DNA from: Gracilariopsis chorda
Lineage: Eukaryota > Rhodophyta > Florideophyceae > Gracilariales > Gracilariaceae
Direction: 5' to 3'
NCBI GenBank assembly: GCA_003194525.1
Contig: NBIV01000194.1
Coordinates: forward strand, 91,990-155,989
Length of the DNA: 64,000 bases
The position numbers and the translations under genes are program-made. Positions 10,997-63,886 of this stretch are shown piece by piece (within the stretch, counting starts at the first letter, position 1; each line of letters begins with the position of its first letter). Below the pieces are notes generated by a model. That model saw only the letters and a program-made list of their open reading frames with translations, was not told the DNA's origin and ran no database searches.

Positions 10997-11898
10997 TGTA
11001 GTGCAATACCCACAAGCGGGACAACACACGAAGACGTTCGGAATCTTCCTCTCACGAGGGTAACACAGCGAATGGAGCCTCTCCGGATGAGCACGAAGAA
11101 GTCGGGTTGTAAAGCCGAGGCTCACCCTCACGCCAAGCGGGGAGAGTTGAAACGGTAGGATTAGGATCACCACGAATGGGAAAACAGCCCTTCCAAGGAG
11201 TACGAGTCCACGTAAGTGGGGGAAGACGTCACGGGATACTGGCACGAGAGACACGCGTCAGCGGTGACGAGCAACCACACAAAGGGGTAGAAACCACGAG
11301 AGTGGGGTAAGGGAAATACGGGGGATGCCCGATTGGGGGCGACAGGGGTGTGGGCCAACGGGACCACGGAAAAAGGTACAAAGGAACCCTATACAGGGGC
11401 GAGAACACGGCGGTGGTGAATTAAGTGACAAGTTCCCAAGGCGGTGATACTCCTAGTGACGCAGGGTGGATAGGTCTACCGTTAGTAACGCGGCTTTACC
11501 TCCGAGGAGTGTAGAAGACTCGCGAAAGCGGAAAAGACTTAGAGCCAAGAACCCTAGTTGGGGAAGTTTACTCAGTGTCAGGGCGAGGTCGCCGAGCCAC
11601 TATATAGTGTAGTAATCTCCCTACTGTAGCGTAGATAAATAATAAATAATAAATATAAGTTAACTGAATGTCCACACCGTGGTGCCAACCTCCTCTTGAC
11701 TATCCGTGTCACACGTGGTCCACTCACACCTTGGGCGGCATACGGCGCATGCAAAGGTGTGCACCTGGCGCACAGTGCGGATCCGCTGAGGGCTGAGACA
11801 CCCGTTAATAGCGGTAGTAATCATAAACACGCGAAAGCGGTAAAAACATCAAGTCCACAGGGCATCGCTGAGTCTTCCTCCTTGAGGATTGCACTTCA
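10997..11898 (-). repeat. gypsy A left LTR (3' LTR in element sense)
   Basis: 902 bp with ends TGTAGTGCAA and TTGCACTTCA, a 9/10 inverted repeat. The partner copy is at 21508-22411. It holds a perfect 12-bp palindromic TATA (CACTATATAGTG) at 11598-11609 and an AT-rich stretch of repeated ATAAATA units at 11630-11660. It could drive gag-pol leftward from the other copy and ORF2 rightward from this copy. Confidence 0.93.
11598..11609. promoter_or_regulatory. palindromic TATA element in gypsy A LTR
   Basis: CACTATATAGTG is identical on both strands and is preserved in the right LTR at 22111-22122. A symmetric TATA could support transcription both ways, which would suit an element with genes on both strands. 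Use as a promoter is inference; gypsy B does not keep the same palindrome. Confidence 0.35.
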
Positions 11899-11915
11899 TA
11901 TCCCCCTCCTGAGGT
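11899..11915 (-). promoter_or_regulatory. gypsy A terminal polypurine tract
   Basis: Read on the minus strand, CTCAGGAGGGGGATA lies directly before the 3' LTR. This is the expected plus-strand primer site and fixes the element's orientation. Gypsy B has the same core (AAGGAGGGGGATG) next to its LTR. Confidence 0.85.
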
Positions 11916-11933: not shown

Positions 11934-13757
11934 ATGGCGACGGAAGCACCGCGCAAGGTCCTTAAATGTAAGTCCGGTTCGCCGGTTCTCCATCCCACTC
12001 TGGGTAACGAGCACCTAGCTGCGAACAGCGAATCTGCGACCAACTCTTCCGAGGTTCTTCCAACAACACGTACGCTTTCGCGGCCTTCTTCTCCGATTAC
12101 TCGGCTTCCTTCATCTACAATGAACAACAACAACGACAACGGCAACGACAACGGCAACACCAGCAGCGACACACCGTTACAGTACTTCTCCGGATTTCGT
12201 TCCGTGCCTCTACCGCAGAGCGGTCTCTCGACTCTGTCGCAACAAACAGGCACAAATGCGAGTGCGGCTCCCACGGGATGGTATCTAATGGCAGCGTGGC
12301 CGTCGTACGACATGCTGGTCGGGCTGCAGCCTTCGCAACATGCGATGAATCTCCGGCTGGCGCCGTGGTTCCACCCGACTGTGGTGTTCAATGATGCGCT
12401 TCTGGCGATGTATACCGATGGAAACGGAATGCTCCCGGGTGACGTTCCGGCAATCGTGACCACTTCGTGGGATTGGCGCAATCGCATAGCGATACCCGTG
12501 CACACGGTAATCCGACGGGGTTGGGAATCAGCAGCTTCCGCGCACGCGGCGTTGGTCTTACTCGCTCATCAACGGCTTCGCCGGGCTCCCTTTGAGTATC
12601 CCATCCCCGATGGTATGGGCTCCGACATCGGATTGTATCGCACCCAAGGTGAAATGGGGTACCTCGACCGCCTCGCGGGTTTGGAACCACTCTTGTGGAG
12701 AAGCGTTCCCGCGGCGCGCCAAGACGCGGTGTGCTGGACACGACCGATCATTCGGGCTGAATTCCGCTATATGCGTCGCTTAGCGAGGGCCAACTTCTTG
12801 TCGATGATACGCTTTGAGTGGCGAGCACGGTCCCAATTCGGGTATTTGATTCCGTATCAGAACGTAGAAGTCGAACGCATCCGCGTGGTCAACCGACGGG
12901 GTCGGTACGTTCCGATTCCACCGTGGTGGTCGCATCTCGAAGCGTGCCGAGGTTGCTACATCAAGTTGCCTCCCGTGATCACGTATTACGGCTCATTCCT
13001 CATCGACGATCTTCAGTCCGGGCTCTGGTCCGTGGTGGTCACCGAATGGGCGGTCCGCACAGCGGCTTTCATCCTCTGGGAGGTTTATGACCAGTACAGA
13101 CTGTGGTTCATCCCGTTGCGGGTCCGTGCCGCCATCCGAGCGCTGGACTTACGAATCCCACTAGGTGGTGAGGCAAACGCTGACGAAGTAGCGGGGCTCC
13201 TCGATTTCATCGACCAGATTGACTGGGCTTCAGTTCCTCTAGAGCAGAGTGGGCGTACTGCCGGTAGCCGGATACAGGACCTGTCGCCAGGGCGTCGAAC
13301 TCCGCTCGCGGGTGACTTCATCTACTTCAACCCTTGGGAGGGGCATGAGATCTCCGCGGAGGAAGCGAACGAGCTCCGGTTTGCACCGAGATATATCCCC
13401 GAGGGGCATCCGACCGGGTTTGTTGACGCCGATGAGTACTACAACGTCTACTACGGTGAGGATCCGATGTTCGACAACGAGCCCGACGAGGGTGCCGGTC
13501 ACGCCGAGGCGGAGGGAGAACCATATGGTATGGATGCTCCTGGAGCCGCCCCAGCGAGTCAGCCGTCCAATCCGTCGGTCGTTCTTCCCACTGGTGGGTC
13601 CTCTACGCCAGGTGAGGCGAACGTGGCCCCTGCGGGTCAGGCTGCCGTGATCTCTCAGTTCCTCCGCCAAGTGGGGCTGGGAGGTAACGAGGCCAGTGGC
13701 GATGTCACCGCGATGCGGGATGCTCTGATAGCCCGACTCCAGGGAAATAACCACTAA
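11934..13757 (+). CDS. ORF2-A: conserved antisense gene of gypsy A, unknown function
   Basis: 607 codons from ATG at 11934 (context ACGATGG), 36 bp beyond the LTR edge, transcribed against gag-pol. A second candidate start is M63 (12120), where both homologues read STMNNN. The N-terminal ~110 residues are Ser/Thr/Asn-rich. The core (about 140-470) is rich in Trp, Tyr and Arg with blocks shared with gypsy B: APWFHPT (143-149), DWRNRIA (180-186), RPIIRAEFRYMRR (270-282), PYQNVEVER (307-315), WW (331-332), AAFILWEVYD (377-386), GGEANADE (411-418), SPGRR (451-455). An acidic stretch follows, then a low-complexity Ala/Gly/Ser/Pro tail. No signal peptide, clear membrane segment, zinc motif or enzyme signature is seen. 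It does not resemble env, integrase, RNase H or known gag. Base composition is GC-rich like pol. Function unknown; intactness in a broken element suggests selection. Confidence 0.85.
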   Translation: MATEAPRKVLKCKSGSPVLHPTLGNEHLAANSESATNSSEVLPTTRTLSRPSSPITRLPSSTMNNNNDNGNDNGNTSSDTPLQYFSGFRSVPLPQSGLSTLSQQTGTNASAAPTGWYLMAAWPSYDMLVGLQPSQHAMNLRLAPWFHPTVVFNDALLAMYTDGNGMLPGDVPAIVTTSWDWRNRIAIPVHTVIRRGWESAASAHAALVLLAHQRLRRAPFEYPIPDGMGSDIGLYRTQGEMGYLDRLAGLEPLLWRSVPAARQDAVCWTRPIIRAEFRYMRRLARANFLSMIRFEWRARSQFGYLIPYQNVEVERIRVVNRRGRYVPIPPWWSHLEACRGCYIKLPPVITYYGSFLIDDLQSGLWSVVVTEWAVRTAAFILWEVYDQYRLWFIPLRVRAAIRALDLRIPLGGEANADEVAGLLDFIDQIDWASVPLEQSGRTAGSRIQDLSPGRRTPLAGDFIYFNPWEGHEISAEEANELRFAPRYIPEGHPTGFVDADEYYNVYYGEDPMFDNEPDEGAGHAEAEGEPYGMDAPGAAPASQPSNPSVVLPTGGSSTPGEANVAPAGQAAVISQFLRQVGLGGNEASGDVTAMRDALIARLQGNNH

Positions 13758-13865: not shown

Positions 13866-13871
13866 AATAAA
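13866..13871 (+). terminator. AATAAA polyadenylation signal for ORF2-A
   Basis: AATAAA lies 109 bp after the ORF2-A stop, on the ORF2 strand and before the convergent end of pol. It is followed by a pyrimidine-rich run. This placement would let ORF2 make its own polyadenylated transcript. Confidence 0.5.
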
Positions 13872-13970: not shown

Positions 13971-14180
13971 TTATCCCAGTTGGGCGTTTATCACCGATGC
14001 CGGGATTCCCGTTCGCGTTCTGCGATGATATGAAACCACTTTAGAACGTGGGAGGTGCTCTATCGGCTCATCCGAATCATATTCGGGCCTGAAACCGTAC
14101 CAGCGTACGCGGTACTGGATGTAACCATCTGGATGGTAAGAATGTTCCACAATGTGGTCAACGACAAACTCCTGTTTGTA
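13971..14180 (-). other. gypsy A chromodomain
   Basis: The C-terminal segment YKQEFVVDHIVEHSYHPDG ... YRVRWYGFRP ... EPIEHLPRSK has the chromodomain fold signature found at integrase C-termini of chromoviruses, where it guides insertion to marked chromatin. It is followed by SYHRRTRTG and ends GIPASVINAQLG. Gypsy B has the matching domain with an intact DTWEP. Confidence 0.85.
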
Positions 14181-15176
14181 GACTTCCCGGCCTCGCCGTG
14201 TTCGCATTATCGCGTCCTGCACGGCATGCTCTACCACCACTGGTGGGTGTTGGACAGTCTTCCCCGGAAGGGGCATGGCTTGGTACAGCCTGTCCATGCC
14301 CTTTGAGGGGTCATTAACCGGTTTCCGGGTAGGTTCATCCGTTTCGCGGGTCTGGAGGTCCTCGGCACGGCCGGTTGCGTCGACCACTTGATGGTGCGTA
14401 TCGGGACCCTTGCTGTGGGTTAAAGTATCCCGCTTCGCGGTTTCTTCGCTCCTTGAGGGGGCTTCTAACGCATCTGAAAGATGAGCATCTGGGTCGCGAA
14501 CCACTGGTTTGTGTGTAGATATCCGTCTTGACGGGGGTGCTTCAGACGACGAAGTCGGTTGTACCACGGTGCGTCGTACAGTACGCGTCGACTCGCCTCG
14601 GGCGGTAATTAGTGCCTTTGCCGTCCGTACGGTGTCGGGGTCACGTGCCGTTTGCAACGGATGGTCGAGGGTTGTCCGCGCCGTGTTGCGTTCCGCCTCC
14701 TCACGTGAGGGCGGTTGCAACGGTGCTGCCGGTCTGTTCTGCCGTGCAGTAGAAGTTACCACGTCCGATGTAGTCGGCTTAGAGGATCCCGCGAGGGCCT
14801 GCTCTGCATTATCCAGCGTAGCTGTTGTTGACGAACCGTGACCCACGGAATGCGGATCAACGCTCGACGGCACAGCCGGTTCAGTATCGCGAACGCGAAT
14901 AGTTTCCTGCAACGATTTCACTTTGGCGAGAGACTTCCCACTGCGTGGTGCATTTTGACGACTAGAATCCCGGTGGGGAGTGCGATCTGGCGCAGATGCG
15001 GTAGAAATTCCTCGAGAGGGTTCAGCGGGAGCTGTAGCGCGCAAATGCGAAGATGGCACGTCAGTAGACGGAACAATCGGTCCACTAGTATCCTTTTCGA
15101 TGTTTCCGGAGGTCCGTGCACCACGGTTGTCATGACGCGACGAAGCGGTCTCAGTCTCTCGACGAGAGTTAGGGTT

Positions 15177-15192
15177 CTCCTCCCCCTCCTTA
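15177..15192 (-). promoter_or_regulatory. internal polypurine tract 1 in gypsy A pol linker
   Basis: On the minus strand CTAAGGAGGGGGAGGA repeats the core of the terminal polypurine tract, 1.2 kb before the pol stop, encoding SKEGEE. Gypsy B has the same tract about 1.1 kb before its pol stop (63887-63900). It could be an extra plus-strand priming site. Confidence 0.45.
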
Positions 15193-18100
15193 GATGGAGC
15201 GGCATGGGGAGTGGTAGAAGCGCCCAAACTGCGGGGATAGACACCGCGTGGTGGCGTTAGAGAAGAAAGGCCATTCGGGCCTGCGTCCGATAAGGACGGT
15301 ATATCTGAGAGTCCCCTTGAAGGGTGTGGCAACACAGAAGGCCTGTTAACCACAGATGTGGGTTGTTCCACTGGGGTGTGTTGGTTCTCATCTTGGTAAG
15401 CAACCTCTACGGAAGGTGGCGGTGCCATAACAACGAGATCGCGGGAAATCCGCTCGTGAGCGTCGTTCATTTCCACCGCTAAGGTGTCGTTATCCACTGA
15501 TATGACCTTGTAGGGACCGTCCGCGACGGGTGAGAGCTTATGCCGTTTCTCCTTATCAGGGTTCCAGTGCTCCTTACGGACGAGGACGTAGTCACCTTTC
15601 GTAATTAGCGGTGCAGTACCTCGTACACGAGAGTCAAAATCACGCTTGTACGCGGCCTGTGCACGTGCCATGGAGCTCCGGGCGACCGGGATTAACTTTG
15701 TAAGCCACGCTTTCCATCGTTGGCGATAATCCTTCACGGAAGGGAAGTTTGCCAGCGTAGGCTGGGGTTCCAACGCTACGGCGGGCGGATGACGCGAAAG
15801 TACCAATTCAAATGGAGTCAAACCCGTTTTACGATGTACCTGTGTGTAATACGCAAACGTCAAGACGTCAGTGTACAGGTCCCATGTTTTGGGGTGATCA
15901 GCAACGTAAGAACGGAGAGAGGCTAACGGCGTTCGGTTAAACCGCTCGACTTGCCCATTACACTGGGGGTGGTAGGTCGTTGTGAACAGATTCTTGATAT
16001 CGAGAATCCGACACACGTCCTCAAAGAATCGCGATGCGAATTGCTTTCCGTTATCGGATAGAATGTTAACCGGTGGTCCGTACACAAATACCCAATGGGT
16101 GACGAAGGCTTGCGCCACCGCGAAAGCGGATATCTTCCGTAAAGGTACGGTGCGAACCAACTTGGAGAAATGATCCGTGATAACGAGTAAAAACTTATGT
16201 CCACGCTTTGTGGTGAGCAGCGGTCCCAAGAGGTCAATAGCGACAAACTCGAGAGGGGCCCGTGCTGGAAATAACTTCAACTTCGTTGAGTGCTTCCGGA
16301 GTTTGACCCGGTTTTTGGCACACTCCGTGCATGACCGCACAGTCGCGTAGTAGTCCACAGCCATGGCTGGCCAATAGTAACTCCGTCGCAACGTGAGGTA
16401 AAGTTTCCGTCCACCGGCGTGTCCACCAAGTTTCGCATAGTGCGACAAGTGCAACACTCTAGATTGTAGAGTATGCGGTACCACTACCTGTGGGGTTGTT
16501 TGAACCGTCCTGACGAGGTATCCAACATCATTCACCTCGAAAGGGAGTTGCGCACCGCCATTAAGTCGGGCGCGAATCTGAGTACAGAAGGGATCACCTT
16601 GTTGTTCTCTGACCATCTCCTCCGGGGGTATTGGCACAAAATTACCCGGTGGGGGTTTCTGAGCATCGTCCGAGACGAGTAGTGCGTCCAGTTCATCATC
16701 CGATTCCGGTTCTTCATCCGAGTTATCGGGTTCACGGTCCGGGGCCTCCGGTTCTCGACCGTTGACGATGAAGCAAGAAATGTCCTCGTCCCCAGCGGGT
16801 AGAGTTTCACCATCCGTGGGTAAACGCGACAGCGCGTCCGCCTGAGCGTTCTTTGTGCCCTTCTTGTAGATCACCTCGAAGTCAAATTCCGCAAGGCGGA
16901 GCCTCCAACGCATTAAGCGGCCTGACGGTTCAGAGACTGTCATGAGCCATCGTAATGATGATTGATCCGTGTAAACGGTGAAATGCACACCCATAAGATA
17001 GGGGCGGAGAGTGGAGAGTGCCCACACAACTGCAAGACACTCTTTCTCCGAGACGGAGTAATTCCGCTCGTGAACGTTCAGTGAGCGTTACCAGTACCCA
17101 GTAGGGGTTCGTTCTTCTTCGGGAGTTGTCTGAAAGAGAGCGCAACCTACTTGGTAGTCACTAGCATCCGTGTCTACGGTAAACGGTAGTCCGGGTTTCG
17201 GTAACGATAAGATCGGTGCTGATGTTACAGCCTCCTTGAGGGAGTTAAACGCCTTCGTCTCGATGGACGTAAAGGGTTCCAATTTCGGTGGTTGGCCTTT
17301 CCGCAAGAGCGCGTTCAAGGGTGCTGAGATATCCGCACAACTCGGGATAAACCGTCGATAGACGTTGACTAATCCTAGAAAGGAGCGTAGTTCCGTTTGA
17401 GTGGCGGGTTCCTTCGCTTGACGGAGCGACTTAACTCGAGCTTCCTCGATCATCACACGCCCAGGGCGGATTATGTGGCCCAGATACTTCACTGTATCTG
17501 TAAAGAACTCACATTTCCTCAACTTGAGAGTAACTCCAGCTTCACGTACCGTGGTCATGATATCTCTCACGTGCGTGAGGTGGTCATCCAGATTATCTGA
17601 GAATACTATGATATCGTCCAGGTAGACGAGGCATGTACGGCATTTGAAGCGAGCCAGTAGTATGTCGATAGCACGCTGGAAAGTAGCGGGAGCATTGGTC
17701 AAACCAAAAGGCATCCGTTTGAAACGGTAGAGTCCGGACTGACAGACAAAAGCAGGCTTGTCGCGGTCCTGTTCCCTGACGGGCACCTGCCAGTATCCCC
17801 AATTGGCGTCTAGAGCCGTGAAAACGGTAGCATTTCCGAGTGAATCGATGTACTCATCCATTCGTGGGATCGGGTACACATCCTTGATGGTTACGGCGTT
17901 CAGTCGACGGTAGTCGATGCAAAAGCGCCAGGATCCATCCGGTTTTGGAGCCAGTACCACTGGGGATGCCCACGGCGATTGAGCCGGTTCTATTACTCCA
18001 GCTCGGAGTATCTTTTCCACTTGGAATTCTTCCTCTTCTCGAGCTTTAGGGCCTGCCCTATAGGGGTGCTGAGCGATCGGCCTGGTATCAGGTAGCAAGT

Positions 18101-18306
18101 AAATCCGGTGCTCCGTTGTAGTAATCTCACCTAGGGAGCCATCCCACATCGTGGTGAAATTCCGTAGCATCTCACGGAGACGTTCACGGTGCGATTCCGG
18201 CACATGACCGAGGTCAAGTTCCTCGAGTTCTTTCACGGGATCAATCCGGTCGTAACTCGTTGGAACCGGCTTAGCATCCGAGCATTTCGGCATTTGGACG
18301 GCAGTG

Positions 18307-18322
18307 TCCTCCCCCTCCTTAG
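18307..18322 (-). promoter_or_regulatory. internal polypurine tract 2 in gypsy A pol
   Basis: A second exact copy of CTAAGGAGGGGGAGGA occurs between protease and RT, encoding SKEGED. Two identical 16-mers over 3 kb inside a coding region, both matching the terminal tract core, are unlikely to be random. Confidence 0.45.
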
Positions 18323-19291
18323 AGTGAACGAGACCGAGGACGTCGGCGGCGGTCATTCTCGTGGGAACCATCGCGGTGGGGTGGGGCATTACCGAACCAA
18401 TGACTTGGTTTTTCACCAGTGAATGGGGCGTAGAGCCTAGATTGGCGACCAGCACGTTGAACGGTTTATTGGGCTCAATTTGAGCTACTCCATTCGCCAC
18501 AGCGAGTTGATACCTATCATATAAGGATGAAAGGGGTTGAATTACTCGTAAACCGTGTTGACGGAAGGTGACTCGTACCCAAACTTGAGATTCCGGTGGA
18601 AGTTGGACAGACGCGGCAACGCGGAGCTTTGTAGAGTCCCGGGAAGCAGGTGGGGGTTCCTGCGCAGCAGGTAATGGAACGTGCTTCTTCGAGGCACGTA
18701 GTAGAGGACGACGTACGATCGAAACGGAGGAGCCGGCTTCCATTTCCACACGTCTTAGACGTGGCCTGATGGCATCGACGAATCTGTCACAGAAGTCGCA
18801 TCCCAAGATCAAAGGGGCGGCAAGTTTCCGACAAACAATAAAGTTGAGTTTCACAAGAAAGGAGCCAAGGCGCACGACCAGGTCGATTGTCCCAACCGTT
18901 GATAACGGGTTATCATTCGCATCCGCGACATCCGGTATCACGCCATGGCGGATCTGAGACTGCAATGACGGTGGCAGGAGCGACTCAACGATGAAGTTCG
19001 GGCCTGCACCTGTGTCCAAAACAGTGAGAACTCGCACCATAAACTGGGTGGAAAGGCCAAGGTCAGCATATAACTTGTATTTTCTCTTGGCCATTACCAA
19101 AACTCTGTCCGGGAACCGGTTGTTTCGAACAAGTTTCCACGGTCGACGCAGAACACTAAAGTGTTCAGAGTTCACGTCTGAGACGGCCTGTTTCCTAGTA
19201 AGGATTTTGACCGGGGAGCGAGGCAGTGACGCCTCGGGCGCCTTCAACCTCAACTCTGAGGGCGCCTCTCCCGTAGGGGAGACTCCCGAAA

Positions 19292-21392
19292 TCAGTTTTC
19301 TTGAGCCCGTTCCGCCTGAGGCGGGGTCTCAGAATCCTGAAACACTAGCAGTGGAGCGCTAGCGGGGGTGTCTTGTCGAACAAGACGGGGGTTAGTGACC
19401 TGCTCAGCAGGGGAAAGCAACGCGTGTCGCGGGTTCGTATCCGGGATATTCCAGGGGAAGTCCGTCTTCGCTCGTAAGTACGAGGCAATCGGAACGGTCT
19501 GCTTCTCCGCTGGAGTGAGGGCTTCATAGTTACCGATCACTCGGGTTACTTGTCTCATAGTGAGGATGCAGTCCGGTGAAATGTGACTGTGTTCGTGACA
19601 TATGTGGCATACGACTCCAGAGCGTGGGGGCGGCTGACCGGAACGAGCATCCGTGTGTCTCACCGCTGGGCGGGAATCCTTCCATCCACTCTCGCACCAT
19701 TCGAATAGGGGATGCGAGGTCCGTGAACACGGGGTCCGTCAACATACAGCAGGGAATTCTCCTGAGCTGTGTCGTAGGACGCATCCGTCGTGGACGGCAG
19801 TTCCGTGGTCGCAATAGACTGAGCACTGGCCTGAGTGAGGTAAACGTTATCGTAGTCCCTTGAAGGGCGTCCACTCGCTGCTAGCTATAAAGATGGTGAA
19901 CTGGCTTCCATCATCAACGCCTTGGCGGGACGAGACTTCGATGCAGGGATACGAGCTCGAAGTGCATCACCTTCCGCTTGCGCGTGTTGAATCAACTCCA
20001 GGTAGGTGGTGTTACGACGATCCTCCCGATATCGGGCCACCAGCGTACGGATTGCCGGATCCAATCCATCGATGTACATGGTGCAGCGCTCTCCGGAGGA
20101 GTAAACATTGCCCACCTGTGGAAAGCCTTATTAAGGCGTACCGAGAATTCGGTTTCCGTCTCTCCAGATTTCTGGCGGGTATCGCGTAAAGCGAGAATAG
20201 CCGCTTGAATAGCGTTGTTCGTCGCGTAGGATCGCAAGAGGTACTGAACCGCTTCCGGCCAGCACGTTACACTTCCTTCGGAGGCTCGGGAAGAACCTCT
20301 TACAGAGTTGTACTGATCCTCGGCGAGGCCACGTAGAAAATACGGTAGGGCAATAAACGCCTGTCCTTCGTTCATACCAAGTATGTCCGCTTCGGAAACG
20401 AACCTTCCGAGGAAGTCTAACACCAATATGGGATCCTCTCCAGAAAAGGACTGGTTACGAAGGGAAAGCTGCATACGCTTTATGCAGTCCTTCACCTTAC
20501 CCGTACCACGGGGTGTACGATCCAATGAGGAGTCCTCAAGCCGATAATATCGGTACGATACCAACCTCTTGTAGAGGGGATTAGTACATTTGAGTTCCCT
20601 CAATCCTAAGTGTTTCCTTCCCTTCCTCCGGGGGCGAATCACACCTTGGGTGGAAGAAGACCGTTTAGAATAGGACGGGCGTCGGCGACGATCATCGTCC
20701 GACGAAGAATCCGACGACACCGAACCATCTGAATTGTGAGAATCCTGTGAAGACAGGGAGGAATCCGACGAGTCGGGATCGTGCTTGGGCTGCTTCTTAC
20801 GAGTGCGGCGGGTAGAATCTTTCTTCTCGCGCTTCGCTTTTTGCGAGACAGCAGCGGCTTCACCCGGGACGTTGTCATCCATCAAGATAGTTTGCTCCAA
20901 CGTCCTCAGACGGGCACTGACACGATCAAATCGGGTTTCCACATTCTCAACATAGTTGGCAGGGCCACCAAAACATTCCAACACAATGTTGACATCCGCC
21001 CTTAAAAGGCGAATGTCCTCAACCAAATCATTCATAGAAGAGGTGTCAAACCTGACACGCAGGACTTCAAACTCCTCCACGAGGGCATTGTGTGCTTCAC
21101 GCATCTCCTCAAGCTGTGCTTGGACACTAGGGGGGGCGTTGGTATCGGGGTCTCCCCTCCGGAGTGCAGCTACATCGGCAGAAGCCGGGTCGACACCAGA
21201 GTTGGGAGCGTCCTTCAACGCCTTAGGCGGGGGTTTCTGGGCTCTCGACGAGTCTTGGCCCTTCGACTTGCCTTTCAAAGTGGCACGTCGAGGGTGGCCA
21301 GCGGGGACCTTCGAGATCTCTGCCTGTTCCACGTCACTGACGGAACGACTCCGCGTGACAACGGGTTCGGCGGAGGATGGTCGCCGAGACAT
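19292..21392 (-). pseudogene. gag: gypsy A gag with frameshifts
   Basis: Gag starts at an ATG (21392-21390, MSRRPSSAEP), 115 bp after the 5' LTR. The N-terminal half has a coiled stretch (QLEEMREAHNALVEEFEVL), then a basic/serine-rich region (SSDSSLSSQDSHNSDGSVS). The capsid core is about 20520-20120 (LDFLGRFVSEADILGM ... LNKAFHRWAMF). A frameshift near 20115 moves the frame to MYIDGLDPAIRTLVARYRE, an in-frame TAG lies at 19885-19887, and another shift near 19663 leads to a perfect CCHC zinc knuckle (CHICHEHSHISPDC). The frame ends with TGA at 19292-19294, where pol takes over in -1. Confidence 0.85.
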
Positions 21393-21482
21393 GTGTAGAC
21401 CAAAAACTCCCACGAAGTGGTAATAAACCAAAAATTTGGTCAGTGAATCTCCGAGGAGAGGTCATACAAAACCTAACCGTTT

Positions 21483-21507: not shown

Positions 21508-22411
21508 TGTAGTGCAATACCCGCAAGCGGGACAACACACGAAGACGTTCGGAATCTTCCTCTCACGAGGGTAACACAGCGAACGGAGCCTCTCCGGATG
21601 AGCACGACGAAGTCGGGTTGTAAAGCCGAGGCTCACCCTCACGCCAAGCGGGGAGAGTTGAAACGGTAGGATTAGGATCACCACGAATGGGAAAACAGCC
21701 CTTCCAAGGAGAACGAGTCCACGTAAGTGGGGGGAAGACGTCACGGGATACCGGCACGAGAGACACGCGTCAGCGGTGACGAGCAACCACACAAAGGGGT
21801 AGAAACCACGAGAGTGGGGTAAGGGAAATACGGGGGATGCCCGATTGGGGGTGACAGGGGTGTGGGCCAACGGGACCACGGAAAAAGGTACAAAGGAAAC
21901 CCTATACAGGGGCGAGAACACGGCGGTGGTTAATTAAGTGACAAGTGCCCAAGGCGGTGATACTCCTAGTGACGCAGGGTGGATAGGTCTACCGTTAGTA
22001 ACGCGGCTTTACCTCCGAGGAGTGTAGAAGACTCGCGAAAGCGGAAAAGACTTAGAGCCAAGAACCCTGGTTGGGGAAGTTTACTCAGTGTCAGGGCGAG
22101 GTCGCCGAGCCACTATATAGTGTAGTAATCTCCCTACTGTAGCGTAGATAAATAATAAATAATAAATATAAGTTAACTAAATGTCCACACCGTGGTGCCA
22201 ACCTCCTCTTGACTATCCGTGTCACACGTGGTCCACTCACGCCTTGGGCGGCACACGGCGCATGCACAGCTGTGCACCTGGCGCACAGTGCGGATCCGCT
22301 GAAGGCTGAGACACCCGCTAATAGCGGTAGTAATCATAAACACGCGAAAGCGGCAAAAACACCAAGTCCACAGGGCATCGCTGAGTCTTCCTCCTTGAGG
22401 ATTGCACTTCA
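21508..22411 (-). repeat. gypsy A right LTR (5' LTR in element sense)
   Basis: 904 bp, TGTAGTGCAA to TTGCACTTCA, about 98 percent identical to the left copy. It should hold the gag-pol promoter. The palindromic TATA recurs at 22111-22122. Confidence 0.93.
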
Positions 22412-29301: not shown

Positions 29302-30102
29302 ATGCAGTCACGAAACAATTCTGGCTCAAATGGTCCGCAACGTCATTACTCAAGCGGCAGCAGGCATCAAAAGAGAAAAGGAAACCAAAGCCAACAAAAT
29401 CGTCCTACAAATGAAGAATTAGAGGTTGCCGAAACTCTGGCTAACATGCCTCACGGCCGCAAGCCCTCTCGAAGCAAACCTTGCGCAATAGGTTCGTTCC
29501 CGGGTAGCCAGAATTTAAATCAAAGATTCCACGACAAAGAAAAATCAGATGCGGCTCAAATTCTTCTCACCATGAAAAATCGTGCTTCGTTCACAGCATG
29601 GGGTGCGCCAGGATCCATGCAAGATCCCGCAACTAGAGATGGGTTGTCCAAATCCAAGATAGTCCCAGTTTTGCCACCTGCGGCTTCGTCTGCCGGTAGA
29701 CCGTCTCAACCTCGATCTTCAGTGGACGAACTAAAAGCAAAAGCACAATGCGAACCTCGGTCTCGGGATGAACGTCTACGGAGTCTGAAATGTAAGAAGT
29801 GCTCACGGCAAGTGCAAACTCGGGAAGCACTTTACGCTCATCAACGCGAATGTACAGTGGAGCTCCGATGCCAAAAGTGCAACTTCAAAGCAGCGTCCAA
29901 GCTTTTTCTAGCTCGTCACCAAAAATCGCATAGCTTGAAAAGTTGCCCGCATTGTCGCTTCAAAACTGAAAGCACGAAAACGCTTTGGAACCATGTTGCA
30001 AGAAATCATAATCCACAAGTCACTCGCCGTATTTGCCACCAAAGCTACTCCAGAGAAAGTTCACTCGCCACTCATGTACGAGACAAACATCCGTCGAAAT
30101 GA
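29302..30102 (+). CDS. four-finger C2H2 zinc-finger protein
   Basis: 266 codons from ATG to TGA. The N-terminal half is basic and Gln/Ser-rich with EELEVAETLANM and DAAQILLTM, likely disordered. The C-terminal part has tandem C2H2 fingers: CKKC...H...C (about 163-185, last ligand Cys), CQKC...H...H (about 190-210), CPHC...H...H (about 214-236), and a last finger RRICHQSYS...H...H where the first cysteine is replaced. Likely a nuclear DNA- or RNA-binding protein. It is single-exon and TE-flanked, so it may be host or transposon-derived. Confidence 0.6.
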   Translation: MQSRNNSGSNGPQRHYSSGSRHQKRKGNQSQQNRPTNEELEVAETLANMPHGRKPSRSKPCAIGSFPGSQNLNQRFHDKEKSDAAQILLTMKNRASFTAWGAPGSMQDPATRDGLSKSKIVPVLPPAASSAGRPSQPRSSVDELKAKAQCEPRSRDERLRSLKCKKCSRQVQTREALYAHQRECTVELRCQKCNFKAASKLFLARHQKSHSLKSCPHCRFKTESTKTLWNHVARNHNPQVTRRICHQSYSRESSLATHVRDKHPSK

Positions 30103-34943: not shown

Positions 34944-37900
34944 TCAGGATGTTGAAGGTGGGTCACAGTCTTTCTGAGACGCTTCCTGGGATGAATGTGG
35001 GCTTGTCCTCGCTCGCTTTCTCGTGCGCTCCAAGGAGCTTTTATTTCTCCGTTGTGCCCTGTGGCGTCCATTGTTTGGCAGACGGATCCCTGATGAACTA
35101 AAATGTTTTGTAGAAGAAGATGGATGCAGTAAAGTGACAGTGTTCCCTGTTTCTTTTGCGTGTTCTGTTAATGAAGCCAGCCTTGTTTTAAAGGTCCCTC
35201 TAGCTTTGAAGTGTGTCGCTTTTCCTTGCTGAATGTATGCGATGGCATCCCTTAAAATACGTAGAACTCCACTCACCGCAACACGTCCAATTCCAGTAGC
35301 TTGTCTATTTAAAGCATCGTAGAGGTTTTTCCCTTCCAGTTACGTATTGTACCCATCTACTTCCGAATCTTCTTTACTGGTTCTAAGTATATCTCAGTCA
35401 ATGGGGATAAGCTCTTTCTCCGTCAACTCATCAAAATGGCGTAGTCGGTAATCCATCTCCTCGTTGTTGAAGTATCGGGTCTCTGACCTGATTTTCGCCA
35501 ATTATCGGACTGTCATAGCAGAAGTATCTTTTCTCCAGTATGTAGAGAAAAGCGGTTCAAGAGTTATGAAGAATTCTAGTATGTTTCGTAGTTCAGGGAA
35601 CGGCAGATGTTCTTCCTGATAAACCACAGCACACCGAACCATGTGACGACAAGCAAATCCAATGGACCACGGCTGCCCACAGGAACAGACACCAATACAC
35701 TCTGCCTTAACGTCATCCCTAAACCCCGTATACCGTTTTGAGAATTGTACAACAGTCTCCTTTGAAGAGCGTTCTTCATCCACTGACGCATTCCGGCTCT
35801 GACTCAGATGGCTTCCCCATTTCAATTTGACGCGAGCTACAGGTCCAATTGCTGGGGTTGAACTACTTTCCTGGTTTCTGATTGCTTCCGGCCACGCTTC
35901 CAGTGAATAATCCACAACCTCTGTGCTGGAAATAATGTCGTTCTTCGAGGGCTTAAAGCTCAAATCTACGAAGTGTGCCAAGGCGTAGTTCGTGTACTCA
36001 GCCACCAGGCTGTCTACAACTTCTACAGGTAGAAAGTGCTCAAGCTCTCTTGTCTTCCGATACCTCCCACTTTGAGAAGATAAGGTTCGTACAAGGTCCA
36101 AGTTCCGGGTATCAGCCCGTTCCTGGGATACACGCGGAACCTCCAAAGGAACCTTGCACAAGGGAGTCTTCTTCGATATAATGATCTTCTTGTATGCAGA
36201 GTTAGAAGATTCGGTGTAGCCAGTTCCTTGGAACATGTAACGGGTAGGTATAGCCGCATTTCGGAAGCAAGACATCAGCATATGCGGCTTATAGTGGTAC
36301 AAGTACTTATACCACACAGGGAGACGATCGTCAAAAGCATCAAAGTACTTGGATTCTAGCATTCTTCTCCTTTCGAAAAACGTTTCCGACGTATATGACT
36401 TTCTGAGGTTGAAGAGGTCTTTCTTCATATCGTTCATCCACTCCATCTTACCAAATGTTCTACACCAATTTGCCACATTCTTCTTCTGATTTTCGTTCAG
36501 ATGCCATTCGTTGAGGCTTATATAGGACGAATTGAAGACCTTCTCAGCTGCATTTATACACGCAGTGTTCTGGTCCATCACTACCATCGCCGGTGAGACG
36601 GCGACTATAGACTTGAAGTAGGACAGAATTCGTACGAAATCCTCTTCTTTTTCGGAGCACATGTACCCCATGAAAAATTTCAACACATGAACATCATTGG
36701 CTCTTCCATTAATGGTGACCAGAGGGAAACCGTATCTATTGGCTATGGCTTTACAATCGATAGACACCCCCGGAACAATGCAGAACTTCTGGTAGTCTTC
36801 CATCCACTCTCGAAACGACCAACAAGCGTACTTCATCCTACCCGAATCATCCGCAGCGAAGAATCCCTTATTACCTGCATCTTCCTGGCTCAACGAAAAT
36901 AGCAGGTCACACAACCTTACACATTCCAAATCGCAGGGATTGCTTGTGGAGGAAGCATACCTCAACTTCTTCCTCGCCGATACCGGATTAATCTTTTGAT
37001 TGTACTTGTCTTCCAGGTATCGTATCGTATCTCTAAAGCTCATATGCAAATCCTTCGTCATATGTATCGCTTCAGAACGCATTTGCGGCTTGAGATGTCT
37101 AATACCAAAGCTCCCAGAGGGACCATGTCCATGTTTACAACCATTTTAATTAGCCACGTAGATCATTCCACCATCTTCCTCCTGACCAGAATCCTCCGTC
37201 TTAATCGTTATCGAGAAGAGGCATCGCCTCATCTTGTTATTTTACTGATCGCAATTCAAGATTCCCTTCTTCAGCACCCTTCTATTCCCACGTTCAGCAC
37301 CATGACTCTTCGGAGACTTTGCCTTATCCGGATATAGGTTTCGTTCTCCAAAGTATATAGAAGTTCTTACGAATAAGCTGTATCCGAAGCAGTCCGCGAT
37401 AAATTGAACTTCATTCAGAACCGTGACACTAGAAGCATTGAGAGGAAGGGATTCCAGATAGGCTAAGACAGCTGCTTTAAACACTCCTCAATTCTCTCAT
37501 TCGGTATCGTGTTCTGTACGGATTCCGTGCCCAGTTCTTCATCACCATCTTCTGCCAAGTAGTTTTCGTCCTTCTCTCCAAGGCCATCCTTCTCCTTTGA
37601 TTCTGATTCTTCTTCATTCAGGATGCCACCATCAGATTCTTCAAAGAAGCATGAAGGAACATCCTCTTCGTCATCTAAGAATCGATCAATGAGCAGCGCC
37701 TCCTCCTCTTCAACGGATTGCTCATCTGAAACCTGCTGCGCATATGCAACGTTTGCGTTGAGAGTTTCACTCACCTCACTCATTTTTGAGTCTAACTCGG
37801 CGCCCACAGCGCTGTGGGGTGCACGCTCGCATTTCGCGTCCACTGTTTGTGTTGAGGAGTTGAGAGAAGCAGCAGTGGGGTCAGCTTCAAAAGAGCTAAT

Positions 37901-40347: not shown

Positions 40348-41170
40348 TGTTCGTTTGTGGGAAATGATTTCATCGGCATCGGCATCAACATCAACTTCGA
40401 TTTGAAGATGGGACTCTCGCTGCCCATGGGGAACTAACTAATTTGTACGTGCTTGCGGGAAAGGTAAGCCACGAATATCCCATAAGGCCCGTCTATATCA
40501 TGAAACGCAGGGCATAGTCTAAAGTTGATTCAAATGTGACAATTTCTGGTAAGGGCTTCATTCCATCGGGTGTTTCTACACGCAAGCCTCCGCTCTGTAA
40601 CAAGGACGCAGTTTCCTTCATATACCTGGGGTTCAGAATTGTAATCCTAAAGAACTGCATCTCTGAATCCCCAGGAACGAAGTACATTATGTTGCGCTTT
40701 GTCACAACCCGGACATGGACGACGATTTTGTGGTTCATGCCGTCATGTTTCTTCGACAATGCCACATTAAGACCCTCGTTCAAAGTTGATGCATCATCTC
40801 CAGGTAAAACGGGGACATATAAGCAATGATAAAATCTGTGACCACGCAAGAGAACACTATTTCCTTGTTCAGTGACTCCAAACAACCGAAGAATTGCTGA
40901 CCCATTCCTTTCTGTGGCGTGATCGTCGGACACGTCAACTTGCATGATTACCAAGGGGTCTGCTTGATGATTGAGATTCGGCAGCGGTGGACGTCTCCGT
41001 ACATCCCGAACCTTAACGGTTTGAAGGTCGGAAGCTCCCATCTCTCCCCAGTTACACTTGGTACACAAAGAATCACCCAGTGCTAAGCCGAGAAACACAA
41101 TGCCGAGTTTTAGCAGCTCTTTGCCAAGGAGGCCTTTGTTAAGGACTATTTTTGCGCGAAACCGGTGCAT
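40348..41170 (-). pseudogene. DNA polymerase delta catalytic subunit, N-terminal fragment
   Basis: Matches the start of eukaryotic polymerase delta: RRPPLPNLNHQADPLV, then ILRLFGVTEQGNSVLL, GHRFYHCLYVPVLPG, FFRITILNPRYM, and TLDYALRFMI, the region before the 3'-5' exonuclease domain. An in-frame TAG (40493-40495) follows; the frame continues as TGLMGYSWLTFPAS, and after a frameshift near 40420 as SHLQIEVDVDADADEIISH, then ends at 40345-40347. The exonuclease and polymerase cores are missing. The first ~40 codons are not recognisable and may be flank. A cellular rather than viral origin is suggested by the RPPLP leader. Confidence 0.75.
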
Positions 41171-42929: not shown

Positions 42930-43490
42930 CTCCTGAAAAACAATGGAGGTGGCGTAACCACCCTCTCCATGACATCCAGCGGGCCTAACCCAATGGACGC
43001 GATGTACTGAAGGAGGAGGTGGCATAACCAGCCCTCCTCGTGGCACCGAGTGGGCGTAGCCCACTCAGTGGCACACCAACAGAGCCGAGGTGGCATAACC
43101 GCCCTCTTCATGGCGTCCAGCGGGCATAATCCACTTGAGTCCATGAATCGTAGGAGTAGGTGGCATAACCTTCCCTCTTCGTGGCACCGAGTGATTGTAG
43201 CCCACTCAGTGTCATACGAACAGACTCGAGGTGAGGTAACCCCCCTCTTCATGGCGTCCAGCAGGCATAACCCACTGGAAGCCATTTATCGTAGGAGGAT
43301 GTGGCACAACTAACCCCTTCTCGTGGGACTGAGTGATTGTAGCCCACTCAGTGTCATACAAACAGACTTGAGGTGAGGTAACCCCCCTCTTAATGGCGTC
43401 CAGCAGGCATAACCCACTGGAAGCCATTTATCGTAGGAGGAGGTGGCACAACTAACCCCTTCTCGTGGAACTGAGTGGGCTTAGCCTTCT
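42930..43490. repeat. 141-bp satellite, four units, 47-codon period
   Basis: About four tandem units with landmarks (CATGACATCCAGC or CATGGCGTCCAGC) near 42970, 43110, 43251 and 43394, that is 140-143 bp apart. Each unit is itself two related ~70-bp halves starting GAGGTGGCATAACC or GAGGTGAGGTAACC; one half carries the GGCGTCCAGC landmark and the other a GTGGCACCGAGTGGG landmark. On the minus strand the repeat remains open for long runs, giving a repeated peptide with GLCPLDAMKR and CATEWATPTRCHEEG. Confidence 0.85.
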
Positions 43491-50264: not shown

Positions 50265-50269
50265 ACAGT
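50265..50269. repeat. copia C target-site duplication, left
   Basis: ACAGT, repeated at 55317-55321 directly after the right LTR. Confidence 0.85.
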
Positions 50270-50541
50270 TGTTGCTTGAACTTCTGACATGCGGTCGATG
50301 TTCATTGTCGTAAACGCAGTGTGAGAACGTTCAACTATGCTTAAACAACAAATGTGGCACAAGTCTGCCGGGAGCTTCTCTTAGCTCCGGTAGATTGGTG
50401 GGTTTATATAACGTTACCTACGCGACCTTTGAGCTACTTGGGTCTTCACGTCCCGGACTCTGGTCCTTCGTTATTGTACGTTTTAGCTGACAAAATACGT
50501 TTTCTGGCTTTTGGGAGTACGGAAAGAGTACGTAACCTACA
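50270..50541 (-). repeat. copia C left LTR (3' LTR)
   Basis: 272 bp, TGTTGCTTGAAC to AACCTACA. A C-rich run to its right (50544-50550), on the minus strand GACGGGGGGG, is the polypurine tract. Confidence 0.9.
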
Positions 50542-50636
50542 AACCCCCCCGTCGCGCTAGTATCCTTAGTATAAACGTATCCACCTTAACAAACAAAACA
50601 GTGTAGAAAGTGTCTGGCAGTACGGGTCTGCGGTGA

Positions 50637-55316: not shown

Positions 55317-55329
55317 ACAGTAACTTGTA

Positions 55330-59649: not shown

Positions 59650-60562
59650 TGTGGTGCAATCCCGGTGTGGGAAAGGCACCCAAGGCAGCTCGAAGCCTTG
59701 CTCTCTTGGAGAGGTAGGCCCAGCTGGGTAGAGCCCTCCGTGTCCCGTATGACGGGTGTAACTCCGTCGGGAGCCTGGATGTACCTCGGAGGTTTAGGGG
59801 TTAGAACGGGTCGGAACCACGGCTGGTCCGGAAGTAGCCTGCGAACAGTGGAACAAAAGGGGGAAAGGGACCACCCGACGGGGGCGTGCGGAAGGCGGGA
59901 ACAGACCCCGGAGGGGGGTGCCGATACACACACACGAACACGCACCGCGCGGCGGTTAGGGGATATGAAGGGAAGGGATGGTCTCACGGTCTCACGACAC
60001 ACGTCGGTAATATCAATACCCAAAACTGGGGCGGAGATAGGGCCTGTACGGGTGGTCACACGACAACAATGAATACCACGAGGGTTCACAACCCACTGGG
60101 TACGACGAGCACGGTCTCCTCGGTGGTGCGAGTCGGGTGAAACTATCGGGCAAGCGGTGTACCTCCGCGAGGAGTTAGACACTTCGCATGGCGAATAGAG
60201 TCAGAGCCGAACTCTTGTTACTTTTCTTGGTGAGCTCGCCGCCGTGCGGCCGACGCTCAAGTACTAGCTCAGTGCAGTACAGTAGGTAGTGCACTAGCCT
60301 AAGTAAAATTAACCCCTAAACTATACTAAAATAAGTAGCCGTTTTGGGCCTCCTGGCCGGGGCTGTAGCCACGTGTCCACCACCCTTGCCAGGCAAGTAC
60401 CACAAAATATGAATGTTCCCATAACCACCCTGGGTAACCAGACCGCTAATTAGCCCGGTAAACGGGGGCTAAAATTCATGCATCCCGCTTCATCGCTCGC
60501 ACCGAGTACACCTCAGATATGAGTTTCACCATCGCCCGTACGCGGGAATGTATTGCACTACA
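59650..60562 (-). repeat. gypsy B LTR (3' LTR in element sense)
   Basis: 913 bp, TGTGGTGCAA to TTGCACTACA (9/10 inverted repeat, cognate to gypsy A). An AT-rich stretch at 60300-60340 lies where gypsy A has its ATAAATA units. Left neighbour CGTTT would be the target duplication. Confidence 0.85.
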
Positions 60563-60612: not shown

Positions 60613-62454
60613 ATGAGGCGCGAGGGTATAAATAGTCCCGACAAGGGAATCGCCGAGATACCGGTCCCCCGTACCAACACGGTTACAACTGATCAACCCT
60701 CAGTACCTTCTTCAACAGACTCTGCGCCCCTCTCTACTATGAACAACAATCCGTTTTCGAACAACCCGCCTGCGGGCGCCCCGCAGGGGACTTCCGCGAG
60801 CGGACAACCTTCCTTCGCGACGCCGGAGTCGTGGGTTCGTCACCCAACCTCTGGGTTCCTCTCCTTGCCTCTGCCTGGAGGATCGTCTCATGTTCCAACC
60901 TTGGATGCCTCGGATGCCGCGAGTATCGCCGCCTGGAATTCCGCCCAAGCGATACCGATCACTGCGACCGCCGCCGGCTGGGTGTCACCATCGACACTTT
61001 GGGCCCGCAATCCCCGGGAAGACGCTCTCCTCTTTTCGCGTGCGCCCTGGTTCCACCCCACATGGGTTTCCGACTCGGACCTCATCGACTCCTATGTGGA
61101 GGAGGGCGAGCTCCCAGGGGGACTAGGCCGGGATATGGTCGACTCCTTCGACTGGAGGACGCGTATCGCGGTAGAGCCACAGTTCCTCGCACGGAAGCGC
61201 ACCAGATATGGTTTCGAGACGCTGAATGACGCCCGTGCCGGGATGGCCAAGGTCGCCTACGACCGTCTCGCCCGCGCGAGTTATCCGGATGAGCTGGTAC
61301 CAACGGAATACAGCTTTGACCTCTCGCGGTACCGTACCTACGGTGAAGTCTCATACTGCGAGAACCTTGCTGCCTACCAGCCATCTACACCGTTCCGGTC
61401 CACTCCAATAGAAGCCGGGATGCTCCTCTGGAGGCGCCCAATTCTGCGTGCAGAGTTCCGATATCTTCGTCGTCCGAATCATCGCGGATCCTTCTTCGAC
61501 CGACTCCGGTTTGAGCGAAAGGCGCGCTCCCGCTTCGGGTTCCTGGTACCATACCAAAATCTCGAGGTCGAGAGGCTCCGTCCATCCGCGATGCGCGGCC
61601 GGTATGCACCTCTTCCCCATTGGTGGAGCAGGTTCGAAGTCCCGAGGGGATGCTTTGCGGAGATGCCTCCGTGCCTCAGCTACATCGGTTCACGATTAAT
61701 CAACAATCCGGATTCCGGTTACTGGACTCTCTTCCTCGCCGAATGGGCTGCTCGCGTTGCCGCATTTCTCCTCTGGGAGGTGTACGACAAGAACCGTCTG
61801 TGGTACATTCCTCCTCACCTACGCCAGGTTATCCGCCGATTGGATCTCTATATCCCTCTGGGATCCGAAGCCAATGTGGATGAGCTTCAGTGCCTTCTGA
61901 ACACCATCGATATGGTTAACTGGGATACAGTCCCCGTCTCCAACGTCCCTGACGGTGAGCCTTCCAGGCATGATCGCTCTCCAGGCCGGAGAAATCCAAA
62001 CGCTGGCAACTTCGTCTTCTATGACCCTTGGGAGGTATCCGTGACTTCACGGGCTCACGCGCTAGCGTTACGCGATGTACCACGCTCCGTTCCGCGAGGC
62101 CACCCGGTTGGGTTCATGTTTTCCGATGACTGGCACGGTTCCTACGAGGATGATCCAATGGTGGATGACGACCCCGATGAGGTGGAGGAGGCCGTAGCCC
62201 CGGTAACGGCGATGGTCAACGATCTCGACGGATCCGGCCAGCATGTGGCTGCTCCAGATGGCTGGAATATGGCCGCCAGTGCGGCTGCTTCTCCGTCTAC
62301 CGCATCTCCGGTCCCCGTGGACCCTCAGGCCGTTGCCCTCAGGGCTCACCTCCAGTCCATTGGAGTGGTTGCGCCTTCCAACCTCACCAGCGTGAGCGAG
62401 TTATTGGCTTTCGCGTCTGCGAACTACCAACCGCCAACGAGCGGCTCATCCTAA
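60613..62454 (+). CDS. ORF2-B: antisense gene of gypsy B, homologue of ORF2-A
   Basis: 613 codons from ATG 60613; the frame is open 60 bp further into the LTR. The conserved Met of STMNNN is at 60739. Homologous to ORF2-A over most of the protein: APWFHPT, DWRTRIA, RPILRAEFRYLRR, ARSRFGFLVPYQNLEVERLR, RYAPLPHWWS, AAFLLWEVYD, GSEANVDE, SPGRRNP, then PWE, RGHPVGF and an acidic DPMVDDDPDE. The two differ at roughly half the positions yet keep spacing, so the similarity is old. The C-terminus is a low-complexity Ala/Pro/Ser tail with no shared sequence. No recognised domain. It is the only long intact gene of this element in view. Confidence 0.85.
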   Translation: MRREGINSPDKGIAEIPVPRTNTVTTDQPSVPSSTDSAPLSTMNNNPFSNNPPAGAPQGTSASGQPSFATPESWVRHPTSGFLSLPLPGGSSHVPTLDASDAASIAAWNSAQAIPITATAAGWVSPSTLWARNPREDALLFSRAPWFHPTWVSDSDLIDSYVEEGELPGGLGRDMVDSFDWRTRIAVEPQFLARKRTRYGFETLNDARAGMAKVAYDRLARASYPDELVPTEYSFDLSRYRTYGEVSYCENLAAYQPSTPFRSTPIEAGMLLWRRPILRAEFRYLRRPNHRGSFFDRLRFERKARSRFGFLVPYQNLEVERLRPSAMRGRYAPLPHWWSRFEVPRGCFAEMPPCLSYIGSRLINNPDSGYWTLFLAEWAARVAAFLLWEVYDKNRLWYIPPHLRQVIRRLDLYIPLGSEANVDELQCLLNTIDMVNWDTVPVSNVPDGEPSRHDRSPGRRNPNAGNFVFYDPWEVSVTSRAHALALRDVPRSVPRGHPVGFMFSDDWHGSYEDDPMVDDDPDEVEEAVAPVTAMVNDLDGSGQHVAAPDGWNMAASAAASPSTASPVPVDPQAVALRAHLQSIGVVAPSNLTSVSELLAFASANYQPPTSGSS

Positions 62455-62790: not shown

Positions 62791-63516
62791 CTACCCAACC
62801 TGGGCCATGTCCAAAGTGGATGGGAGTGGGAACCGCGTCCGGCGGTGGTAGGTTATCACCTTGGAACGAGGAAGGTGCTGAATGGGCTCCCATGTGTCCT
62901 CTTCTGGGGGGTATCCGTACCATCGGATTTGGTAAAACCACACTCCTTTGGAGTCCAGAACATGATCCACGATGTGGTCAACGACAAACTCCTGGTCGTA
63001 CGTAGCCGGCTCCTGACCCGTCATGGCAGGGCTTAAGGGGAGAACCCTGTGAGGGGACTTGCCTGAAATTGGCGCGACCCTGCGGGCAAAGTCAGCTTTC
63101 CTCGACGCTGCGAGTGCTGGGACTTGATACCGCATTGCGGTCTTTCCGCTTCCTAATCCTCTCCTTGTGGGGGGGGCCTTCCGTTCTAACCGGATTCCCC
63201 TATTGACGCGCAGCTCGCGAGCTCTTCTCCCACGCGACCCGTGCAACTCTGGTGAGTTTGACCGTTCACGGTGAGGGAGGCGGTTCACTACGGTTCCGAC
63301 GCCAGGAGGCGGATTGCCATGCATCACACACTGTGATTGGCTGGCCGCTGGCGGCAAGTGTCGCGCGCGGTCTTTCCACGACGCGGGTCTTGACTGTACT
63401 CCTGACGCCGGCCGGCGGTATGTACGTGTACACCTTTCCACGGTTTGAAATTTCGGGCTTCGTCCGCGTGACAGTGGCGTCACAGTGTCCATTTGTAGGG
63501 CTCTGCGGTAACGCAC
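62791..63516 (-). CDS. pol: gypsy B pol, linker and chromodomain (partial)
   Basis: The last 241 codons. A basic Arg/Pro/Ser-rich linker leads into YDQEFVVDHIVDHVLDSKG, FYQIRWYGYPPEEDTWEPI and QHLPRSKVITYHRRTR, a complete chromodomain with the DTWEP aromatic that gypsy A lacks. It ends STLDMAQVG, similar to gypsy A. Integrase would lie further right. Upstream frames to 64000 are not continuous, so a frameshift is likely near 63520. Confidence 0.75.
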   Translation of the reverse strand: MRYRRALQMDTVTPLSRGRSPKFQTVERCTRTYRRPASGVQSRPASWKDRARHLPPAASQSQCVMHGNPPPGVGTVVNRLPHRERSNSPELHGSRGRRARELRVNRGIRLERKAPPTRRGLGSGKTAMRYQVPALAASRKADFARRVAPISGKSPHRVLPLSPAMTGQEPATYDQEFVVDHIVDHVLDSKGVWFYQIRWYGYPPEEDTWEPIQHLPRSKVITYHRRTRFPLPSTLDMAQVG

Positions 63517-63886
63517 GCAGTGTCAACCACACTCTCCGTGTCCGCGGTTGCTTTTCAGCTCACCACGAAACTGGTTATGACCGAGGTTGTATGTGCTCCG
63601 TGCTCGGAGATATCATTCGCCACATTAGTGACCACACCGAGTCCGGTTCACTACTTCCTCCTTCGCTACCCAGCGACTCGCTCGACAGGAGTGCATCCGG
63701 GTCCGCGGAGACGGCCTTCTCGCTTCGTGATGCGTTCAACTCCTCCCTGCTCCGGGGTGCTCATCCGACGATGCCGTATTCCCGATGCGGGCTCGTCCAC
63801 TGTTCCCAACCTTCTCCCGTGCCGGGCTTACCACGCGTTCCGTGACGGCAGGAGCTTCCTTCCGCGATGGCGCGATCGATTCCGTC

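Follow-up and report, generated by a model that had tools for sequence, protein, structure and literature searches.

In a Ty3/gypsy element of the red alga Gracilariopsis chorda (Rhodophyta, Florideophyceae), an antisense open reading frame separates pol from the 3' LTR; comparisons between diverged groups of copies show that it codes for a protein and is preserved by selection, which is purifying between these groups. Our best reading is that the protein family is new while its kind is familiar, accessory ORFs in antisense orientation being located at this place in elements such as Grande, RIRE2, Retand and Boty. With regard to function, we lean, with some reserve, toward an antisense accessory gene of a red-algal chromodomain Ty3/gypsy lineage that would be transcribed from the LTR and would encode a nuclear regulator.

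Elements A and B

The window, that is, the whole 64,000-nucleotide stretch of DNA that was analyzed, contains the antisense gene in two elements, A and B (Table 1). Element A reads on the minus strand from its 5' LTR to its 3' LTR, the two being identical at 884 of 902 aligned bases, and its antisense gene is convergent with pol, their ends lying about 213 nt apart. Pfam searches identified reverse transcriptase, RNase H, integrase and chromodomain in the minus-strand pol of A, with PF00665 and PF00078 above the cut-off and the chromodomain (PF00385; E 3.2e-05) slightly below it, at 24.2 bits against a cut-off of 25.1. In the same element there are the motifs VLDTGA and YLDD, which we take to mark protease and reverse transcriptase, respectively, and a CCHC knuckle in the gag region. 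Element B is truncated by the window end, and its order of LTR, antisense ORF and pol end is the same as that of A. By their domain content, both elements have a Ty3/gypsy pol with a C-terminal chromodomain and are of the chromovirus type.

Table 1. Positions in the window of the features of elements A and B.
Feature	Position	Strand	Length or basis
Antisense gene (putative accessory gene) of element A	11934..13757	+	ATG ORF, 607 codons (607 aa)
3' LTR of element A	10997..11898	-	902 bp; alignment with 5' LTR
5' LTR of element A	21508..22411	-	alignment with 3' LTR
PPT-like sequence of A, in the interval between LTR and antisense gene	11899..11910	-	label from position and composition
AATAAA, candidate poly(A) signal of the A antisense gene	13866..13871	+	
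pol of element A	13971..19328	-	protease motif, reverse transcriptase, RNase H, integrase, C-terminal chromodomain
gag region of element A	19295..21461	-	frames 19995-21461 and 19295-19738, the latter with the CCHC knuckle
Homologous antisense gene of element B	60613..62454	+	613 aa
3' LTR of element B	59650..60562	-	
C-terminal pol end of element B with chromodomain	62791..63522	-	PF00385, E 1.6e-10, above cut-off

The antisense proteins of A and B are 43% identical over 437 aa (A residues 86-506; E 2e-111) and the C-termini of their pol proteins are 58% identical over 69 aa. The bodies of the A and B LTRs have no significant DNA similarity, the best match being 13 bp at the termini (E 0.029). 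These results uphold the preliminary description, made from the sequence of the window, on three points: a plus-strand gene of 607 codons in A, flanked by the 3' LTR and by pol and running against the latter, a homologue at the same place and in the same orientation in B, and LTR bodies that have diverged between the two elements.

Several details of the two elements may be recorded here. The 13-bp match joins 10997-11009 to 60550-60562 in inverted orientation, and the antisense frame of B, read from stop to stop (60523-62451), starts inside the LTR. A single in-frame stop at 17088-17090 splits the pol frame of A in two, and the part at 13971-17027 (minus strand) has approximately 600 residues from the integrase core to the chromodomain, an unusually long tail.

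Family size, placement and selection

A degenerate pattern for the PY(Q)NxE(I/V)ER block of the protein had 506 exact matches (235 forward, 271 reverse) in the 91.3 Mb assembly, while the same pattern read backwards, as a control, had none. Searches of the genome with five family proteins returned at least 75, 75, 75, 82 and 82 match rows, which overlap between queries and some of which are two pieces of one copy. The preliminary description of the gene as one shared by two elements is thus correct as to its presence in both, but the gene is far from limited to them. Seven diverged groups of the family were read, designated A, B, C, C2 (with C3), D, E and F, and the annotated protein P0005 represents another.

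In a collection of 5.8 billion protein sequences, a search with P0001 identified P0003 and P0004, as did a profile search, and a search with P0004 identified five further proteins (P0005-P0009). Two of these are annotated proteins of G. chorda: P0003 (BWQ96_03215) is 100% identical to the assembly over residues 1-491 and P0005 (BWQ96_10156) is 99% identical to it over residues 88-565. Homologues in related elements, which the preliminary description had sought beyond its two copies, are therefore many within the genome, and others exist outside it. No relative was found among the viral contigs or the prokaryote genomes searched. In a maximum-likelihood tree of 14 rows P0004 is sister to B plus E (support 100/99), and P0007-P0009 are on long branches that make their placement unsure. 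This sister position, together with a best genome match to P0004 of 59% among the 75 rows listed, suggests a gene that predates the divergence of P0004 from B/E, transfer between species being also possible. On two contigs (C705 and C701) there are two gene copies each, in opposite orientation and a few kb apart, which represent either an inverted duplication or an assembly artefact.

To relate the gene to its elements, 105 integrase matches were compared with the listed gene matches (68 rows for group A and 59 for group D, with 24 C-type rows left out). Among the matches listed, 56 of the 105 integrases have a gene of the same group no more than 6 kb downstream (38/55 A-type and 18/50 D-type integrases), and in all 56 pairs integrase and gene are on opposite strands; the other 49 have no partner among the matches listed, some of them being located at the start of a contig (e.g., C222:307-1491). 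For A, B and D1 (whose pol end is NAQVG) both sides were seen and the gene lies between pol and the 3' LTR. For C, C2, C3, E and F the LTR side was seen, with an LTR end and a PPT-like sequence immediately 5' of the gene. At 38 A and B loci (8 A and 30 B, out of 44 different copies), the PPT-like motif preceded the gene by an almost constant distance in 6/8 A and 29/30 B, and the exact chromodomain motif EFVVDHI was present on the opposite strand in 5/8 A and 27/30 B.

One A-type locus (L069; 801 bases at 105600-106400 of contig C3) joins a match to window position 12092 directly to a match to ~13891, with most of the gene missing. This locus belongs to a tandem trio of A-type integrases, of which it is the one read, with a spacing of 8.81 kb; a tandem A-type pair with the gene on contig C98 has a spacing of 10.76 kb. 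It is possible that L069 represents a gene-less derivative of an A-type element, and its lack of most of the gene indicates that persistence does not require the gene in cis.

The evidence for selection comes from pairwise omega values (NG86, with bootstrap intervals), for which group C was used only up to the in-frame stop of its copy L060, discussed below. Between groups, omega was 0.18 for F-D1 (95% bootstrap 0.13-0.24), 0.19 for B-E (0.14-0.25), 0.31 for C-C2 (0.25-0.40) and 0.33 for D1-C (0.25-0.42); for A-D1 it was 0.15 (0.13-0.25), with dS near saturation and 571 of 1000 bootstraps usable, and for D1-D2 it was 0.45 (0.27-0.74). Eight sequences, of which C and C3 were represented by their longest uninterrupted stretch, formed 28 pairs; dS was saturated in two of these, and omega in the other 26 ranged from 0.145 to 0.446, except for C2-C3 at 0.845; many of these values are rough because dS exceeds 1. 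When three between-group pairs were read in all six frames, the annotated frame alone was stop-free. One reverse frame in these pairs had a pN/pS of 0.45-0.59, yet it has 13-27 stops per sequence and we consequently regard its low values as the shadow of the coding frame. As the sole stop-free frame of six, with purifying selection between groups, the ORF is beyond what chance would give.

Within groups little or no selection was evident. Among eight A copies pN/pS was 0.82, with 0.71-0.92 in the other five frames, whereas among 36 B copies it was 0.58, the lowest of the six frames (others 0.79-1.63). Variants common to at least two B copies had a ratio of 0.37 (13 synonymous, 14 non-synonymous) and B singletons a ratio of 0.84; for A the shared and single variants gave 0.75 and 0.90. 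The variation within groups thus looks mostly neutral, as dead copies would give, and the difference between shared and single variants fits a picture in which selection would act during propagation and neutral decay would follow insertion, with A as an older, decaying group. The shares of stop-free frames among the matches listed agree with this picture: 47/56 full-length B rows (29 of the best 30), 55/58 rows placed in group D according to their identity, D being a group of which two copies were read, and 20/39 full-length A rows. A dN/dS near 1, which the preliminary description had named as a result that would speak against its suggestion of a functional accessory gene, is accordingly contradicted between groups, where omega is well below 1, but approached within one of them, A. 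The suggestion itself is borne out as to selection, by the between-group values, while the activity of the gene lies outside the range of this evidence.

The antisense protein, its expression and its possible role

The antisense protein has a low-complexity N-terminus, a core rich in arginine and tryptophan, and an acidic tail. The core, of 325-329 residues, contains 36-40 arginines and 10-16 tryptophans and has a pI of 8.1-9.2 in six of seven proteins (6.8 in P0003), while the C-terminal part has a pI of 4.1-4.8 in all seven. No transmembrane segment was found in these seven proteins with Kyte-Doolittle windows of 19 residues, the maxima being 0.95-1.45. Across 13 proteins, some of which are fragments, 21 residues are invariant, chiefly R, E, W and G; since the set includes one D and no H or C, we infer that a usual hydrolase or metal site is disfavored.

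Pfam searches with 14 family proteins identified no credible relative, the best match (E 0.098) being to families of unknown function, and no match to gag, env or Transposase_28; profile searches of the PDB gave matches at chance level (E >=0.38). AlphaFold2 models of the full A protein (9 sequences; pLDDT 37.5, pTM 0.35) and of the core (12 sequences; pLDDT 35.3, pTM 0.25) were too poor for a fold and, because no fold can be assigned, a role in binding nucleic acid is suggested by composition. These searches agree with the preliminary description in that the protein matches no known retroelement product and no known family of which it might be a captured member. Its further claim, that the family is undescribed, is true of the protein family within the searches made, but an antisense ORF between pol and the 3' LTR is a kind already known (PMC7264820, in the extracts available). 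In the literature searched, which included few subscription journals and from which the G. chorda genome paper stood apart, no title or abstract described the antisense gene. Two assignments could be rejected, that to retroviral or retrotransposon env by the antisense orientation together with the Kyte-Doolittle maxima of the seven proteins, and that to the Retand TRP28 family by the absent Transposase_28 match in the 14 proteins.

Counted from the LTR/PPT boundary, the first in-frame ATG comes after 35 nt in A, 47 in both C and C2, 50 in B and 56 in D1, and after 109 nt in the F copy and 213 nt in E; in C3 the open frame runs back beyond the boundary. As only 35-56 nt of non-LTR sequence is available in five of these eight sequences, the antisense message is expected to originate within the U3 side of the LTR, and we predict that the antisense promoter is probably located in the PPT-proximal (U3-side) part of the 3' LTR. 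The groups yielded no shared promoter motif. At the other end of the gene AATAAA is present in all eight A copies read, 99-117 nt from the reference end position, and ATTAAA is present 3' of the gene in those 12 of the 36 B copies that were inspected.

Translation might possibly begin not at the first ATG but at a downstream methionine (M-N/S-x-N), given that E has no earlier in-frame ATG and that in B, alone of the eight sequences, there is a TATAAA 112 nt upstream; an SGSPV-like segment ahead of this methionine is, however, common to A, C, C2 and D. Compared with the genome, short stretches are left out of the annotated proteins P0003 and P0005. The stretch skipped in P0003 is conserved as protein in other groups and, in L060 (contig C219, 98900-101100), the one C copy read there, it contains an in-frame stop, which is not included in the genome-match table. 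It is possible that this stretch is a real intron, an annotation artefact or the mark of a broken copy.

By place and orientation the red-algal gene is of the aORF-3R kind, that is, the antisense additional ORFs situated between pol and the 3' LTR, for which extracts of PMC7264820 name maize Grande gene23, rice RIRE2 and PvRetro13. Like these, it has no clear similarity to other proteins; the three are from plant elements and were compared with the red-algal proteins through Pfam only. The plant aORF-3R are described in the same extracts as present in most copies of a family, the corresponding counts here being those of A- and D-type integrases given above for the matches listed, and the promoter of Grande gene23 as located in the region upstream of the gene (PMC7264820), where the red-algal gene has 35-56 nt of non-LTR sequence in five of eight cases. 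The TRP28 ORFs of Retand are likewise antisense, located from pol to the 3' LTR, conserved across copies and suggested to be regulatory (PMC11963269, in part). Retand, however, belongs to a flowering-plant lineage outside the chromoviruses, with a pol-3' LTR region of 2.9-6.6 kb and ORFs with a TRP28/Transposase_28 domain (in the same extracts), unlike the red-algal elements, which carry chromodomains, and their antisense proteins. Boty of Botrytis cinerea, a Ty3/gypsy element with the added antisense gene brtn between pol and the 3' LTR (PMC8365987, PMC7264820, both in part), is fungal and is likened to the red-algal gene by layout, not by sequence. HTLV-1 HBZ and HTLV-2 APH-2 are antisense genes whose promoter is inside the 3' LTR and whose products have a nuclear location (PMC11963269, PMC7264820, in part); these belong to human retroviruses, the likeness is in layout only and no sequence relation is expected. 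The extracts of PMC7264820 and PMC11963269 give the function of aORFs as unknown, with regulation suggested.

In the role toward which we lean, a reverse-direction promoter inside the 3' LTR would drive the antisense gene and the message would end near the candidate poly(A) signal situated between the gene and pol. Less surely, and based on its composition, the protein may act in trans in the nucleus by binding nucleic acid or chromatin, and it may, again less surely, regulate transcription of the element or the fate of its RNA, with a layout comparable to those of HTLV-1 HBZ, a bZIP-type protein, and Grande GENE23. As convergent transcription would make double-stranded RNA, an element of this layout might be in acute need of anti-silencing, and the convergence with pol, the chromodomain in pol and the high copy number of the gene would all suit a factor that shields the element when the host silences it through RNA or chromatin. 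A precedent is VANC, an anti-silencing protein encoded by a transposon. We nevertheless consider this role rather unlikely for the red-algal protein, as its 14 members have no Pfam match to a known family and no sequence feature indicates RNAi or methylation. That the protein is structural or serves entry, as an env-like or second particle protein that is antisense by happenstance, would agree with its large size and with the position of env in retroviruses, but appears improbable given that the seven proteins have no segment of transmembrane strength, that the Pfam searches gave no gag or env match and that env-like ORFs are in the sense orientation (PMC7264820, in part).

The matches listed leave room for a single-copy host progenitor of the gene, which would then be cargo, either captured from the host or brought in as a nested foreign element, and would play no part in the life cycle. 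The place and orientation of the gene are, however, constant across diverged groups, purifying selection has been lasting, and P0004 falls with B and E despite its distance from the listed genome matches, all of which make such cargo quite improbable. There is least to be said for the idea that the antisense RNA matters and the protein is a by-product: non-coding antisense transcripts are described for some retrotransposons (PMC7264820, in part), but the purifying selection between groups is specific to the protein frame and, with omega well below 1, refutes an RNA-only role as the sole explanation, so that we regard it as highly improbable, although an added role of the RNA would be compatible.

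Beyond the regulatory role that we favor, we tentatively entertain, as a rather doubtful extension, an old red-algal retrotransposon lineage with a bidirectional LTR and an antisense regulatory protein of unseen fold, which would be an independent parallel to HTLV HBZ and the plant ORFs. If this is true, antisense control genes would have had one more independent origin in LTR elements, and such a gene could help account for the hundreds of copies in the genome. If the family is unrelated to the plant and fungal ORFs, with which it was compared through Pfam only, such genes would seem to have arisen more than once, and repeated origin would suggest a general need of LTR elements rather than an accident. 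The family is well suited to finding the function of aORFs, as many diverged versions, a good share of them stop-free, are present in one 91 Mb genome and the residues, promoter and partners of the antisense gene can be compared across them.

Other features of the window

A transposase ORF of 561 aa (39-1724) matches PF13843 (DDE_Tnp_1_7; E 2.9e-49), which we take to be a piggyBac-type domain, and a MULE transposase domain (E 5.2e-08) is present at 35502-37082. An ORF at 29302-30102 has a C2H2 zinc finger (E 2e-05) and the sequence at 40493-41170 weakly matches POL3_N of DNA polymerase delta (E 2.4e-05). Two stretches of 274 nt (50269-50542 and 55044-55317), 93% identical and 4.8 kb apart, form direct repeats that are perhaps the LTRs of another element. 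Finally, a 141-bp unit with an inner period of 70 bp is repeated in tandem, in 3.8 copies, at 42946-43477.
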